DNA of 42,341 bases from Sporichthya brevicatena (GTDB taxonomy: Bacteria > Actinomycetota > Actinomycetes > Sporichthyales > Sporichthyaceae), in the NCBI RefSeq assembly GCF_039525035.1, contig NZ_BAAAHE010000068.1:1-42341 (forward strand), written 5' to 3'. Positions within the stretch are counted from its first letter, which is position 1, and each line of letters starts with the position of its first letter. The notes beneath the pieces were generated by a model. That model made no database searches, was not told the DNA's origin, and worked only from the letters and a program-made list of their open reading frames with translations. Positions 3,383 through 8,346 of this stretch are shown one piece after another. The position numbers were made by a program, and so were the translations under genes.

Positions 3383-4273
3383 TCAGCCGCGCTTGCTCCA
3401 GTTGTGCACGAGGTAGGAACCGACGAGCACCAGCACGGCCAGGATGACGAGAATCCGCATGGTGGATGTGTACCGCAGCGTCGGCCGGTTGGACACGGCT
3501 TCGGCGAAGCGGCCCGCCGGAGCGGCATCGATCGCGACATCGATCGCGACGTTCTTGCGCGGTTCCACGAGCTCCCGGCGCCGCTGACGTGGGAGCAGCT
3601 CTGGCGCGAGGACGAGGGGCCGCTCGTCGAGGAGGACGGCGGTGCCGCCTCCCTGGCGCCGCCGCGGCCCGGCCAGGCTCCCACCACTGGAGATGTCATC
3701 TGCATAAGAGATGTCATCTCCAGTGCAGGGGACGGGCGCGTCGGGCTCGTCGGCCTCGTCGGGGCGGGAGCGGCGTCCGGTGAACAGCAGGACCGCGCCG
3801 GCGGCCATCAACGAGAGCCCGACGCCGATGCGGCCCGCCGGGGTGGTGAGCACCGCGAGCCGGATGAACGGCCAGCCCGCGTACGGGACGACCGCACGGA
3901 CCTCGGCGGTCCGCGTCCGGGACAGGTCGAGAGTCCATGGATCGGGTTCACGGTTGGCGTCGCCCTTCGTGCGCGCCGTCAGCTGACCGTCCGTCACCCT
4001 CAACTCGATGATCCGGTGGGCCACCGGGTGGTTGCCCGGCGGCTCCCAGGGCGACGGCGGCGCGAACATGACGACGTCGCCGACCTCCAGTCCGGCCGCT
4101 CCGGTCTCGAGGGCGATCGCCAGGTCGCCGCGGTCGGCGTAGCCGCTCATCGAGCCGGAGAGCACCGGCTGCACCGCGACCCGGCCGGAGAGCATCGCGA
4201 TCGCGAGCACGATCAGCGCGATCGCGGCGACGTCCGCGAGCAGCCGCCCGGCTGCGCGCACGAGGCGGTTCAT
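3383..4273 (-). CDS. sipW: SipW-type (ER/archaeal-type) signal peptidase I with long C-terminal extension
   Basis: A membrane serine protease expected to cleave the signal peptides of the two exported proteins encoded just upstream. An N-terminal membrane helix (about residues 11-30) is followed by the catalytic segment VLSGSMSG (Ser41), then VAHRIIE (His86) and TKGDAN (Asp105). The Ser/His/Asp set is that of ER-type SipW peptidases rather than the Ser/Lys bacterial type. A second membrane helix lies near residues 145-170. Usual members are near 190 residues; this one has 296. The extra tail contains a palindromic insert (3685-3725), a 12-bp direct repeat coding for repeated AID, and a last hydrophobic helix (MRILVILAVLVLVGSY). 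The ATG overlaps the upstream stop (ATGA), indicating translational coupling. The final 25 codons could alternatively be a separate membrane peptide starting at 3460, but no ribosome site supports that. Confidence 0.8.
   Translation of the reverse strand: MNRLVRAAGRLLADVAAIALIVLAIAMLSGRVAVQPVLSGSMSGYADRGDLAIALETGAAGLEVGDVVMFAPPSPWEPPGNHPVAHRIIELRVTDGQLTARTKGDANREPDPWTLDLSRTRTAEVRAVVPYAGWPFIRLAVLTTPAGRIGVGLSLMAAGAVLLFTGRRSRPDEADEPDAPVPCTGDDISYADDISSGGSLAGPRRRQGGGTAVLLDERPLVLAPELLPRQRRRELVEPRKNVAIDVAIDAAPAGRFAEAVSNRPTLRYTSTMRILVILAVLVLVGSYLVHNWSKRG
3685..3725. repeat. 41-bp palindromic element inside the sipW tail
   Basis: Perfect 11-bp arms, CACTGGAGATG at 3685-3695 and CATCTCCAGTG at 3715-3725, enclose 19 bases. 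Within it the 12-mer GAGATGTCATCT occurs twice as a direct repeat (3690-3701 and 3708-3719), and each copy is itself a near-palindrome (AGATG-T-CATCT). Read on the minus strand it codes for two DDIS repeats in the signal-peptidase tail, and the local G+C at third positions falls sharply against its neighbours. It looks like an inserted palindrome or a paired operator; which one cannot be told from the sequence. Confidence 0.75.
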
Positions 4274-4803
4274 CCGCTGGTCCGGTTCGCGCCGCCGCCG
4301 ACCCACGCAAGGGTGATCGAGTTGGCGGGGATCGTGACCGTGACGCCGAGGCCCAGGATGCCCGTGATCTGAACGGCGAGGTTGTACGTGGCGCCCGGGG
4401 CCAGGCTGGTGGCCATCGTGAAAGGCCCGGGCGAGGTCGTCAGCGTGACCCGTCCCGTGCAGGTGACGCCGGAGAACGTGTTCGGGCAGCCGTAGACGGT
4501 GAGCGAGCCGATGTTGACCCCGCCCACCCCGACCGTCGCGGTGATCGTCTCCGGAGCGGTGCCGGTGTTCTTGACGGAGAACGTGTCCGAGGCCAGACCG
4601 AGCAACGGGAGGACGAAGCTTCCGCTGTACCCGGTCCCGCCCCCGGTCACGTTCGACCCGGTCAGCTGGTAGCCGACCCGGGCCGAGGCGAGCGGGGCGT
4701 TCCGGTTCCCGGTCCCGTGCCACGCGCCCCAGGCGCCGGGGGAGACCAGCGAGAGCACCGCCGCCGCGGCCACCCAGAAGGTGGCGCGCGGCGTCATGCT
4801 CAC
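4270..4803 (-). CDS. SipW-dependent-type exported protein, second in TasA-like operon
   Basis: The 177-residue product has a short signal-like N-terminus (FWVAAAAVLSLVSPGAWGAW) of the kind processed by SipW peptidases, where the cleavage zone is followed by an aromatic GAWHG instead of the classical AXA. The mature part is a Thr/Gly/Val-rich beta-sandwich-like sequence with FSVKNTGTAPETITATV, typical of TasA/camelysin-like and CARDB-like domains, and two Cys (VYGCPNTF, VTCTG). The GTG at 4803 overlaps the upstream stop (GTGA); an internal ATG at 4797 is the alternative start. Its own stop overlaps the sipW start. By analogy with bacillary TasA it may form or anchor extracellular fibres, but that is an inference. 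Confidence 0.65.
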   Translation of the reverse strand: MSMTPRATFWVAAAAVLSLVSPGAWGAWHGTGNRNAPLASARVGYQLTGSNVTGGGTGYSGSFVLPLLGLASDTFSVKNTGTAPETITATVGVGGVNIGSLTVYGCPNTFSGVTCTGRVTLTTSPGPFTMATSLAPGATYNLAVQITGILGLGVTVTIPANSITLAWVGGGANRTSG

Positions 4804-5396
4804 CCGTCCGTGCGGTCGTTACCGCCGGTCGCGGTCCCGGTGAACGCCAGCGTCAGGGTGGAGGCCTGGTTCTGGTAGGTCGTCTGATCCGCGGTGCCGC
4901 TGAACACGACCCGCACCAGCAGGTGCTTGCTCGCGCCGGCGTTGATCGTCCCGAGGTTCGAGAGCGATCCGAGCGCCGCCGGCGTCGCCTGCGTGCCGAG
5001 GTGGTTCGTGCTGCTGCCCGAGCAGGTCGTCGACCCCGCGGCGAACGCGACGTCGCAGGAGGAGATCCAAGCGGTCAGGGCGCCGGGCAGCGTCGCCGTC
5101 CCGGACAGCGTGCCGGTGAAGGCCTGCGGCACGGAACCGGTGTTCGTGACCGTCACCCAGCGGTGGAAGTAGTCGCCCGGCAGCAGGTTCGTGATGCCGG
5201 TGCTCCAGGTGGCCTGACCGGTGCCGGCGTCCGCGACGTTGACGGTCACCGTCGCCGAGCTCACCGACTGGGTGAGGCTGCCGTCGGACTGCCAGGCGGC
5301 CCAGGTGCCCGACGCGGTGACGACCGCGCCGACGGCGAGGAGCAGGGCGGCCGCGCGGCGGCGCCGGGGGCGGCGCGTGGGAGTCGGCTCGGTCAT
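4800..5396 (-). CDS. TasA/camelysin-like exported protein, first gene of SipW operon
   Basis: This 198-residue protein has a basic start ([10 protein letters not shown]), a hydrophobic core and the SipW-type boundary ASGTWAAWQSDGS, which parallels the GTFAYFSD boundary of TasA-family substrates. The mature domain is beta-rich and carries VTVTNTGSVPQAF, a spacing found in TasA/CalY proteins. Two Cys (SSCDVAF and TTCSGS) may form a disulphide outside the cell. The ribosome site GAGAGGA lies about eight bases before the ATG at 5396. It leads a tightly coupled three-gene operon with a second substrate and the signal peptidase. The likely role is a structural surface or biofilm fibre protein; identity to TasA itself is not claimed. 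Confidence 0.7.
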   Translation of the reverse strand: MTEPTPTRRPRRRRAAALLLAVGAVVTASGTWAAWQSDGSLTQSVSSATVTVNVADAGTGQATWSTGITNLLPGDYFHRWVTVTNTGSVPQAFTGTLSGTATLPGALTAWISSCDVAFAAGSTTCSGSSTNHLGTQATPAALGSLSNLGTINAGASKHLLVRVVFSGTADQTTYQNQASTLTLAFTGTATGGNDRTDG

Positions 5397-5717
5397 GGCG
5401 GGTCCTCTCGAGACCTGGTCAGGTCCTTCACGGCCCCCATCGACCGGCCCGCCACCAACCTGAGCTGTCGGGTCGACGGCAGTTCGGCAAACGCATGCCC
5501 ATTGGACGGTTCGCTTAAGGTTTTTGTCCGATCCGACAGGTTTGAGTCGGGCTCAGCTAACCCATAGCTCCGTTGCGACTACAGAAAGTAGTCGCTTTTT
5601 CGCGTTGGAGCCCCCCACTCCCGGCGCGCGTCCCGAAGGCGTGCCGGGCTCAGGTGACAGCGCGTGTCGATCGAGAGCTTGCTCCGCCCTGCGCGGAGTC
5701 GAAGGGAAACACGACAC
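5397..5717. other. 321-bp divergent intergenic region between TasA-like operon and chaplin-like gene
   Basis: This holds the promoters of both divergent units. The plus-strand side has a possible -35 TTGAGT at 5542-5547, 17 bases before a poor -10 at 5565-5570, then a terminator-like hairpin (5575-5600) and about 110 further bases before the start at 5718. The hairpin would lie in the leader of the chaplin-like gene if transcription begins upstream of it. The purine-rich GAAGGGAAA before 5718 is the ribosome site. The segment CAGCTAACCC at 5553-5562 recalls one part of the ydaO (c-di-AMP) consensus, but the rest of that fold was not found. Confidence 0.5.
5575..5600 (+). terminator. terminator-like hairpin with T tract (possible leader attenuator)
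   Basis: An 8-bp perfect stem, GCGACTAC at 5575-5582 and GTAGTCGC at 5588-5595, closes a five-base AGAAA loop and is followed by TTTTT at 5596-5600. This is a classic intrinsic terminator on the plus strand. No plus-strand gene ends nearby, because the genes to the left are on the minus strand. Its place upstream of the chaplin-like gene therefore suggests attenuation or protection from stray transcription. Confidence 0.6.
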
Positions 5718-6743
5718 ATGGGAATGCACTCCAAGCCTTCGCGAGCGGCCCTGGTCGCCAAGACCGGGGCGTGCTCGGGCGCGGCTCTGTTGCTGAGCGC
5801 GTCCGGCATCCTGCTCGCGCCGCCGGCCGGCGCCGACGGCACGCCTCCGGGCGAGGCCGCGACGACCTCCGCGCCGCCGAAGGCCGAGAAGAAGTCGGCC
5901 AAGCCGGCCGACCGGCCGGCGAACGTGAACTCCACCGGCGACCCGGCCGACGACCCCGAGGTCGAGGGCGCCGACGCCCCGACCGACGGTCCGACGGTCA
6001 CCGTCCCGCGCGACCGCAACATCAACGGGGTCGTCAACGTCGCCGACCTGAACGTCCAGGTCGTCGGGCAGGTCTGCAACAACTTCGTGCCGGTCAACGT
6101 GCTCGGCGGCCAGGGCGCCGGCGAGGCGGTCACGGGCGGGCTCGCGCTCCTCGGCGACGCGGCCGGGGCGAACGCCGAGAACCTGAAGGCCTGCGAGCAG
6201 GTCGTCGACCAGACCGACGGCGTCGGCAGTGAGAATGCCGCCGACGGCGCGGTCGGCGGCACCGAGAACGTCAACGGCCTGATCAACGTCACCGACAACA
6301 ACGTCCACGTGCCGGTGCAGGTCTGCAACAACTACGTGCCGGTCAACGTGCTCGGCGGGCAGGGCAGCGGCGAGAACGCCACCCTGGCCGGGGCGCTCGG
6401 GATCCTCGGCGGAGCGCCGTCGGCGGAGTCGACCTCGGAGAGCTCCAAGTCCTGCGACCAGGACGCGGTGCAGCACGACCGCGACGGGGGCGCCGGTGAC
6501 CGCAACACCAACGGTCTGATCAACGTCACGGACAACAACGTCCACGTCCCGCTGCAGGGCTGCAACAACTACGTGCCCGTGAACGTCCTGGGCGGCCAGG
6601 GCAGCGGCGAGTCCGTCACCGGGGCCGGCGCGTTCGACCTCGGCGGGCTCCTCGGCGAGGACGACGACCCCGCGACGGCGAAGGCCGACGCGAGCAACGC
6701 CAAGTCCTGCGACCAGGACGCGGACCAGCACGACGACGACTGA
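5718..6743 (+). CDS. secreted protein with three chaplin-like repeats
   Basis: The 341-residue product has a signal peptide (hydrophobic about residues 20-38, ending PPAGADG), a Pro/Ala/Lys/Asp-rich linker to about residue 100, then three repeats starting near residues 101, 184 and 263. Each repeat has the core NGLINVTDNNVHVPVQVCNN followed by VPVNVLGGQGSGE and, some 30-40 residues later, a second Cys (SCDQD in repeats 2 and 3, ACEQV in repeat 1). The alternating hydrophobic strand with VxVxVC and VPVNVLG, and two Cys per unit, resemble streptomycete chaplins (VHVPVNVCGNxVNVIGLL), which assemble into amyloid-like surface films. The C-terminus is acidic and His-rich (DQDADQHDDD). The start at 5718 is set by GAAGGGAAA; an upstream ATG at 5664 would spoil the signal peptide. 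The adjacent TasA/SipW operon suggests a shared role in the cell surface. Chaplin membership is inferred from the pattern only. Confidence 0.7.
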   Translation: MGMHSKPSRAALVAKTGACSGAALLLSASGILLAPPAGADGTPPGEAATTSAPPKAEKKSAKPADRPANVNSTGDPADDPEVEGADAPTDGPTVTVPRDRNINGVVNVADLNVQVVGQVCNNFVPVNVLGGQGAGEAVTGGLALLGDAAGANAENLKACEQVVDQTDGVGSENAADGAVGGTENVNGLINVTDNNVHVPVQVCNNYVPVNVLGGQGSGENATLAGALGILGGAPSAESTSESSKSCDQDAVQHDRDGGAGDRNTNGLINVTDNNVHVPLQGCNNYVPVNVLGGQGSGESVTGAGAFDLGGLLGEDDDPATAKADASNAKSCDQDADQHDDD

Positions 6744-6801: not shown

Positions 6802-6833
6802 CGAACGGCGCCGGGGGCCCCCGGCGCCGTTCG
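6802..6833 (+). terminator. GC-rich hairpin after the chaplin-like gene
   Basis: Two perfectly complementary 16-base halves (6802-6817 and 6818-6833) lie 59 bases after the stop, centred on GGGGGCCCCC. There is no T tract, as is common for terminators in high-GC actinobacteria. It separates the chaplin-like gene from the Zur-controlled pair. Confidence 0.65.
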
Positions 6834-6878: not shown

Positions 6879-6893
6879 TGATAATCGTTATCA
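6879..6893. promoter_or_regulatory. Zur box
   Basis: TGATAATCGTTATCA at 6879-6893 is a 6-3-6 near-perfect palindrome and matches the actinobacterial Zur operator pattern (TGAxAATxxTTxTCA). It lies 19 bases before the ATG at 6913. A -35-like TTGCGT at 6853-6858 stands 17 bases before TAATGA at 6876-6881, so the box overlaps the probable -10 region, which fits repression by zinc-loaded Zur. The composition is strikingly AT-rich for this genome. Confidence 0.85.
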
Positions 6894-6912: not shown

Positions 6913-7272
6913 ATGTCGGTAGCGGGGTACACGGTCGTGGTCTGCCAGTCCGGCGGCTGCCGCAGCGGGTTGGGGCTGATGCCCGCCCTGCGGACGCTCG
7001 TCCGCGCCACCCCGCACGCGGTGCTGGTGTCCTCCGGCTGCACGGTCGGGACCCTCACCTGCCGCTCCCGCGTCCCCGGGCCGGTGGTGCTCGTGCAGCC
7101 CTGCGACGAGCAGCGGCGTCCCGTCGGCGCGGCCGTCCACGTCGGCCCGCTGCGCACGCGCAGCGACGTCGCCGACCTGATCGCCTGGCTCCGCTCCGGG
7201 GACCTCGACCCCGCCGACCTGCCCTGGTCGCTGCGGCTGAACACCGGCCCCGCCGCCGCGCTGCACAACTGA
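6913..7272 (+). CDS. thioredoxin-like [2Fe-2S] ferredoxin family protein, Zur-controlled
   Basis: This 119-residue cytoplasmic protein opens with a beta strand and a CxxxxC element (VVVCQSGGCRSGL, Cys11 and Cys16), with further Cys at 43, 50 and 64 (SSGCTVGTLTC, VQPCDE). The order resembles thioredoxin-fold [2Fe-2S] ferredoxins or DUF1636-like proteins, but the Cys could also bind zinc. The ribosome site GGAGGGAG precedes the ATG. It is the first gene after the Zur box and is followed after 33 bases by the Mrf-like gene, so both should be induced in zinc shortage. Its biochemical role is not known to me. Confidence 0.65.
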   Translation: MSVAGYTVVVCQSGGCRSGLGLMPALRTLVRATPHAVLVSSGCTVGTLTCRSRVPGPVVLVQPCDEQRRPVGAAVHVGPLRTRSDVADLIAWLRSGDLDPADLPWSLRLNTGPAAALHN

Positions 7273-7305: not shown

Positions 7306-8346
7306 ATGGTTCCCCTCGTCGTCGTCTCCTCGATCGACCCCGTCATGCCGCAGGTGCTCGCGAGCGGGCTGCTCTGCGACGTCCCGGACCTCACGGTCAT
7401 CCGCCACGAGATCTACGCCGCCGAGCACCGGTTGCGCCGGGTGGTCACGCGCGCCGACCGGGTCGAGGAGGACGTCGACGTCGAGCTCGAGCACACCTGC
7501 CTGTCCTGCGCGCTGCGGGCGGACATCGTGCCGACGGTGGTCCGGGTCGCGGCGCAGCAGCCGGCGGCGATCGCGCTCGTCCTACCCGTCACCGCCGACC
7601 CGGTGCCGGCGGTGCACGCCCTCGCCCGGCTGCGCGGGGACGGCGTCCGGGTCCGCGCCACGGTCGCGGCCGTCGACGCCCACCGCTTCGAGTGGGACCT
7701 GCTGGGCAACGACCTGCTCGCCGAGCGGGACCTCGCGTTCACGCCCGAGGACCGGCGCTCGGTCGGCGAGGCGCTCGCCCGCCAGGTGGAGAGCGCCGAC
7801 GTGCTCGCCCTGGACGGCGACCTCGGCCGCCGGGCGTCCGTCCTGCTCGACCACCTTGTCGGCGGCGAGCCGCGCCGGGTCGGTCTGCTCGACCTGCAGC
7901 CCGCCGACGTGCTCGACCACACGACACCGTTCTCCTGGATCGGCCGCGGCGACCCGGCCCGCGCGCGCCCCACCGGCGCCGCCGCCGACTGCGGGATCTG
8001 GACCGTCGACCTGCAGTCCTGGCGTCCCTTTCACCCGCACCGGCTCCGCGCGCAGCTCGAACGCCTCGGCACGGGCCCGCTCCGCGCCCGCGGCTACTTC
8101 TGGCTGCCCACGCGATCCGGGCTCCGGTTCATCTGGGACGGCGTCGGCGGCCAGCTCTCCGTCGGCGACGTCGGTTCCTGGGCCGGTCCGCCGTCGACGC
8201 GGCTGGTCATCACCGGCACGGAGCGCGACCCCGAGGACCTCCGCGACGCCTTCGACACCGCGCTGATGACGGAGGCCGAACTCGTCGACGGCAGCGACGG
8301 CTGGCGCGACCGCGACGACGGCTGGGACGAGCTGCTCGGCCGCTGA
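7306..8346 (+). CDS. COG0523/CobW-like protein related to mycobacterial Mrf, Zur-controlled
   Basis: The 346-residue product has the layout of the zinc-starvation COG0523 protein Rv0106/Mrf (the factor that recruits MPY to remodelled mycobacterial ribosomes). Its N-terminal strand is followed by SSIDPVMPQ where a GTPase P-loop (GxxGxGKT) would be, so nucleotide binding by Walker A is not expected. HTCLSCALR (Cys65, Cys68) replaces the CxCC metal motif. The CobW C-terminal domain is recognisable from RPFHPHRLRAQLE through RARGYFWLPTRSG and VGSWAG. GGAAAGG stands before the ATG. Placed 33 bases after the first Zur-box gene, it should be made when zinc is scarce. A role in ribosome remodelling is inferred from Mrf; zinc allocation is an alternative. 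Confidence 0.75.
   Translation: MVPLVVVSSIDPVMPQVLASGLLCDVPDLTVIRHEIYAAEHRLRRVVTRADRVEEDVDVELEHTCLSCALRADIVPTVVRVAAQQPAAIALVLPVTADPVPAVHALARLRGDGVRVRATVAAVDAHRFEWDLLGNDLLAERDLAFTPEDRRSVGEALARQVESADVLALDGDLGRRASVLLDHLVGGEPRRVGLLDLQPADVLDHTTPFSWIGRGDPARARPTGAAADCGIWTVDLQSWRPFHPHRLRAQLERLGTGPLRARGYFWLPTRSGLRFIWDGVGGQLSVGDVGSWAGPPSTRLVITGTERDPEDLRDAFDTALMTEAELVDGSDGWRDRDDGWDELLGR

Follow-up and report, generated by a model that had tools for sequence, protein, structure and literature searches.

The region at 3383-6743 of the window (the whole 42,341-bp stretch of Sporichthya brevicatena DNA that was analysed) probably consists of a standard TasA/SipW operon lying beside the gene of an unrelated, Sporichthya-specific secreted repeat protein. 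The window originates from a 5.2-Mb draft genome of the genus Sporichthya (G000), which was compared with two further Sporichthya genomes, i.e. a congener at a level of 91% identity (G001) and a third congener represented by a MAG (G002). On the minus strand, the genes for a TasA/camelysin-like protein of 198 aa (4800-5396), a second SipW-type substrate of about 175-177 aa (4270-4803) and an ER/archaeal-type (SipW-type) signal peptidase (3383-4273, with a conserved core at 3770-4273) follow each other with successive 4-base overlaps (GTGA and ATGA), and the translational coupling of this three-gene operon is therefore real. The gene for the secreted three-repeat protein of 341 aa (5718-6743, plus strand) is oriented divergently and is separated from the TasA-like gene by 321 bases. 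The gene set and its layout thus agree with the preliminary description of this DNA, in which a coupled operon of two SipW-type substrates and an ER-type signal peptidase was opposed by a secreted protein with three repeats.

The TasA-like protein matched Pfam family PF12389 over residues 21-89 (25.3 bits, cut-off 22.5) and fell below the cut-off of the Bacillus TasA equivalog model NF046066 (13.7 bits, cut-off 450); it is a relative of TasA rather than TasA itself. Its signal peptide ends in ASGTWA-AW, with a Trp at P2 and another at P2′, and this GTWA-AW site matches the GTWA-AF site of B. subtilis TasA, aromatic residues at P2 and P2′ being common to both. The cleavage site of B. subtilis TasA is TWA-AFND, whose Trp at P2 and aromatic P2′ have been linked to its poor cleavage by the ordinary signal peptidase of E. 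coli (PMC10269814). The TasA-like protein is 90% and 76% identical to its counterparts in the two congeners, and comparison with G001 yielded a dN of 0.064 and a dS of 0.265, the corresponding values for the repeat protein (91% identical in G001) being 0.043 and 0.187. Since synonymous changes exceed replacement changes in both cases, the TasA-like and the repeat protein are both real proteins under purifying selection. Structure prediction of the TasA-like protein produced a beta-sandwich model of low confidence (pLDDT 59), and a fold search with this model returned generic beta-sandwich matches, with TasA absent among the PDB matches listed. The second substrate starts either within the stop of the TasA-like gene (GTGA) or at an ATG at 4797, and its signal peptide ends in SPGAWG-AW. 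The signal region of this protein is nearly invariant across the congeners, the protein as a whole is 66% and 65% identical, and scans of Pfam and NCBIfam yielded no match above cut-off.

The signal peptidase scored 57.1 bits against TIGR02228 (cut-off 51.85) and matched SEC11C (E 0.0013), and it remained below the cut-off of the Bacillus SipW equivalog NF046067 (33.4 bits, cut-off 190). The serine of its SGSM motif and the histidine (not Lys) of its AHRI motif are invariant in all three Sporichthya genomes and are, by motif, the predicted catalytic residues. Past the conserved core, the ORF extends for about 125 further codons that cross the region occupied in G001 by a multicopper oxidase gene. 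Because the ORF overruns its core through this oxidase region and into a separately conserved membrane ORF, the true C-terminus of the signal peptidase is uncertain and the extension is of doubtful meaning. The membrane ORF in question (MRILVILAVLVLVGSYLVHNWSKRG, 3383-3460, minus strand) is small, has a single TM segment, has counterparts in both G001 and G002, and here shares its reading frame with the ORF of the signal peptidase. In G001, the multicopper oxidase gene (L011 10315-11604, minus strand) sits between the signal peptidase and hydratase genes; it is missing from the window, in which at most a short remnant is present at about 3487-3754. A 22-nt inverted repeat with a 7-nt loop and 86% complementarity was also noted at 3680-3730, just past the conserved peptidase core.

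Each of the three Sporichthya genomes has the operon at the same place, flanked by pntA and an enoyl-CoA hydratase gene. TasA-like genes were found in 10 of 297 genomes of the class (E up to 1e-5), and a contig search with TasA revealed one locus, in a Sporichthya MAG. As in the window, the TasA-like gene has a SipW-like ORF nearby at actinobacterial loci elsewhere (6 of 8 loci from other families: L092, L094, L096, L097, L098 and L099), and in L097 TasA is followed by a protein weakly related to the second substrate. The TasA/SipW half of the region is real and ordinary, being an already known kind of operon and a standard actinobacterial secretion unit; our literature search found no paper on SipW-dependent proteins in actinobacteria. 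The operon shares with tapA-sipW-tasA of B. subtilis a TasA/camelysin-type substrate, a second dedicated substrate, a SipW-type Ser-His peptidase and a cleavage context of GTWA-A followed by an aromatic residue. However, it differs in its gene order (TasA-second substrate-SipW), in equivalog scores far under the Bacillus models, and in a second substrate that is only a TapA candidate.

By analogy with this system, the ER-type signal peptidase would remove the signal peptides at GTWA-AW and GAWG-AW, which are expected to be poor substrates of ordinary signal peptidase, and the TasA-like beta-sandwich protein would then polymerise into fibres on the cell surface. TasA subunits of B. subtilis join by N-terminal strand donation (PMC9674648), and SipW-type processing would likewise free an N-terminal strand that is probably donated to the next TasA-like subunit. 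The second substrate would probably be a starter or minor subunit of the fibre, in the way that TapA acts on TasA (PMC10151520).

The repeat protein carries a Sec-type signal peptide (PPAGADG) and three repeat units (6012-6218, 6261-6485 and 6498-6740, plus strand) with two cysteines each, and has no visible wall anchor or sorting signal. The units are 70-81% alike over 155 nt at the DNA level, and the protein contains 44 acidic versus 13 basic residues. Of the repeat motifs originally proposed (VPVNVLG and VxVxVC), VPVNVLGG indeed occurs exactly three times, whereas VxVxVC is exact in one unit only and approximate elsewhere (VQVVGQVC, VHVPVQVC and VHVPLQGC). The protein matched no Pfam or NCBIfam family, and the AlphaFold model of the protein alone was useless (pLDDT 35). 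Its gene is preceded by a leader that forms part of the divergent intergenic region (5397-5717), which is 95% identical to that of G001 over 161 nt. RNA of the leader at 5500-5717 folds better than shuffled sequences (z = -2.69), and a terminator-like hairpin at 5575-5595 (plus strand; GCGACTAC AGAAA GTAGTCGC, then TTTTT) is invariant in the congener. The leader belongs to no Rfam family, and no second copy was found in the five genomes tested. Just 3′ of the repeat protein gene, a perfect 16-bp inverted repeat without a T-run (6802-6833, plus strand) constitutes a possible terminator.

True matches to the repeat protein were restricted to 2 of 394 class genomes (i.e. its own and G001), and among 396 genomes of the phylum only its own was retrieved. 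Neither plasmids nor a contig search yielded a match. Weak matches in four other genomes, together with one extra match in G001, turned out to be unrelated frames hit by chance. Within the genomes searched, this makes it a Sporichthya-restricted orphan secreted protein, with a conserved, structured leader. G002 carries the operon on an intact contig, without the repeat gene and without the two genes behind it, a pattern that fits gain and loss alike. In G002, a degraded metallophosphoesterase (L017, about 4270-4590) lies between pntA and TasA, at the place of the repeat, 119-aa and CobW-family genes in the other two genomes. Since one of the three congeners thus has the operon without the repeat protein, the tie between the two is weak. 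Moreover, G000 and G001 are collinear and about 91% identical across the region, so that descent alone suffices and the adjacency of repeat gene and operon in these genomes amounts to one event. The repeat protein was not found within about 6 kb of the eight TasA loci of other families, contig permitting, and the six with a SipW-like ORF nearby have no chaplin-like protein in that span either.

The preliminary description had also called the repeat protein chaplin-like. As in the Streptomyces chaplins (PF03777), the repeat protein is secreted and has a valine-rich beta motif (V-x-V-C-x-N) with two cysteines per unit. However, chaplin domains have three GN motifs 12-13 residues apart, two cysteines and strong hydrophobicity (PMC13251363), whereas the repeat protein is acidic and hydrophilic. 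Specifically, GN motifs numbered three per domain in five measured chaplin domains versus 0 in the 341 aa of the repeat protein, GRAVY was 0.28 to 0.67 in these chaplin domains versus -0.41 in the mature repeat protein (0.19 to -0.67 in its units), and the cysteines are spaced by 18 in chaplins versus 39, 43 and 49 in the repeat units. No match to PF03777 was obtained with the repeat protein in Pfam at E up to 10, and no protein of the three Sporichthya genomes exceeded the cut-off of this family; in the same search, 51 of the 247 genomes of the class did have one above it, which served as a positive control. When six repeat units (three from each of G000 and G001) were scored with an HMM built from 15 chaplin domains, four of them (units 1 and 3) remained at shuffle level, and unit 2 of either genome reached a p of 0.012-0.016. 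Profile comparison with hhalign gave a probability of 32% over 17 columns, covering the motif VHVPVxVCxN. A highly diverged true chaplin that lost its GN motifs could explain this motif, the two cysteines per repeat and the score of unit 2 (p about 0.01 versus shuffles), but is very improbable given the shuffle-level scores of units 1 and 3, the complete lack of GN motifs, the other cysteine spacing, the negative GRAVY and the missing Pfam match. The resemblance to chaplins is real but short, and does not carry membership. After Pfam, NCBIfam, PHROGs, profile-profile and shuffle-calibrated HMM comparisons had returned the short motif only, the repeat protein was rejected as a chaplin.

Chaplin-like features are better developed elsewhere in the genome. 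On contig C49, two adjacent four-repeat proteins (L089 1514-2818 and 3178-4101, both minus strand) contain NVPVTVCGLxVLG units together with the sorting signal LPHTG, and one of them scored 19.4 bits against PF03777 (cut-off 21). All three Sporichthya genomes have units of this kind, as does one of two other members of the family (related units in G003). This LPxTG pair is a better chaplin-like candidate than the repeat protein of the window. CwpA and CwpB of Actinoplanes missouriensis (PMC13251363), the C49 pair and the repeat protein are alike in that they are secreted to the surface of filamentous actinomycetes and show no clear chaplin domain, although CwpA/CwpB and the C49 pair, unlike the repeat protein, are sortase-anchored. 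Our literature search yielded no relevant work that deals with both Sporichthya and chaplins.

The adjacency of the two halves had originally been taken to suggest one surface assembly that uses both modules. Spelled out, the repeat protein would serve as a chaplin analogue in function and assemble together with the TasA-like fibres on the aerial hyphae of Sporichthya, under shared divergent control. Such control could account for the nearly identical divergent regions of two genomes, and would favour a functional link; the conserved region, folded leader and invariant hairpin are compatible with it, though no proof of it. The VHVPVxVCxN motif is common to the repeat protein and chaplins, and a film, if made by these three Sporichthya genomes without PF03777 above cut-off, needs another surface protein. 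However, the adjacency held in the two collinear genomes, and was missing in G002 and at the eight TasA loci elsewhere. Given also the acidic, hydrophilic character of the repeat protein and the stronger claim of the LPxTG pair to be chaplin-like, we regard this joint assembly as unlikely. Its further extension, by which repeat and TasA-like proteins from one divergent control region form a joint hyphal coat and TasA fibres have been recruited to aerial development alongside a non-chaplin film protein, is quite unlikely.

The repeat gene might alternatively belong with the genes behind it rather than with the upstream operon. A perfect palindrome at 6879-6893 (TGATAATCGTTATCA), conserved in the congener and unexpected by chance, precedes the gene for a 119-aa protein (6913-7272, plus strand) and that for a CobW-family GTPase (ZigA/MRF-like; 7306-8346, plus strand). 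We take this palindrome to be probably a Zur box, and the genes behind it to be a zinc-limitation unit. The repeat gene is on the same strand as this unit, and all of these genes are missing together in G002. However, the palindrome comes after the repeat gene, which is preceded by a separate 320-nt leader and followed by a hairpin, and membership of the zinc-limitation unit seems unlikely. In the preferred reading of a standard operon beside an unrelated secreted protein, the repeat protein would be exported via the usual Sec/SPase I route, apart from the operon products, and would be controlled from its own conserved leader. Its three repeats are acidic, rich in asparagine and valine, and capable of forming disulfides. 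A soluble or matrix-associated protein of the extracellular space is a more likely identity for it than a chaplin, a matrix role being the most likely.

Should the joint reading hold, it would reveal the way in which a filamentous actinomycete that lacks canonical chaplins covers its hyphae, and would connect the Bacillus-type fibre system with aerial development. On present evidence, the locus is of more modest value: it firmly places TasA/SipW operons in Sporichthya, and it adds a secreted repeat protein specific to this lineage, whose leader is strongly conserved, to a genome that holds better chaplin candidates elsewhere.
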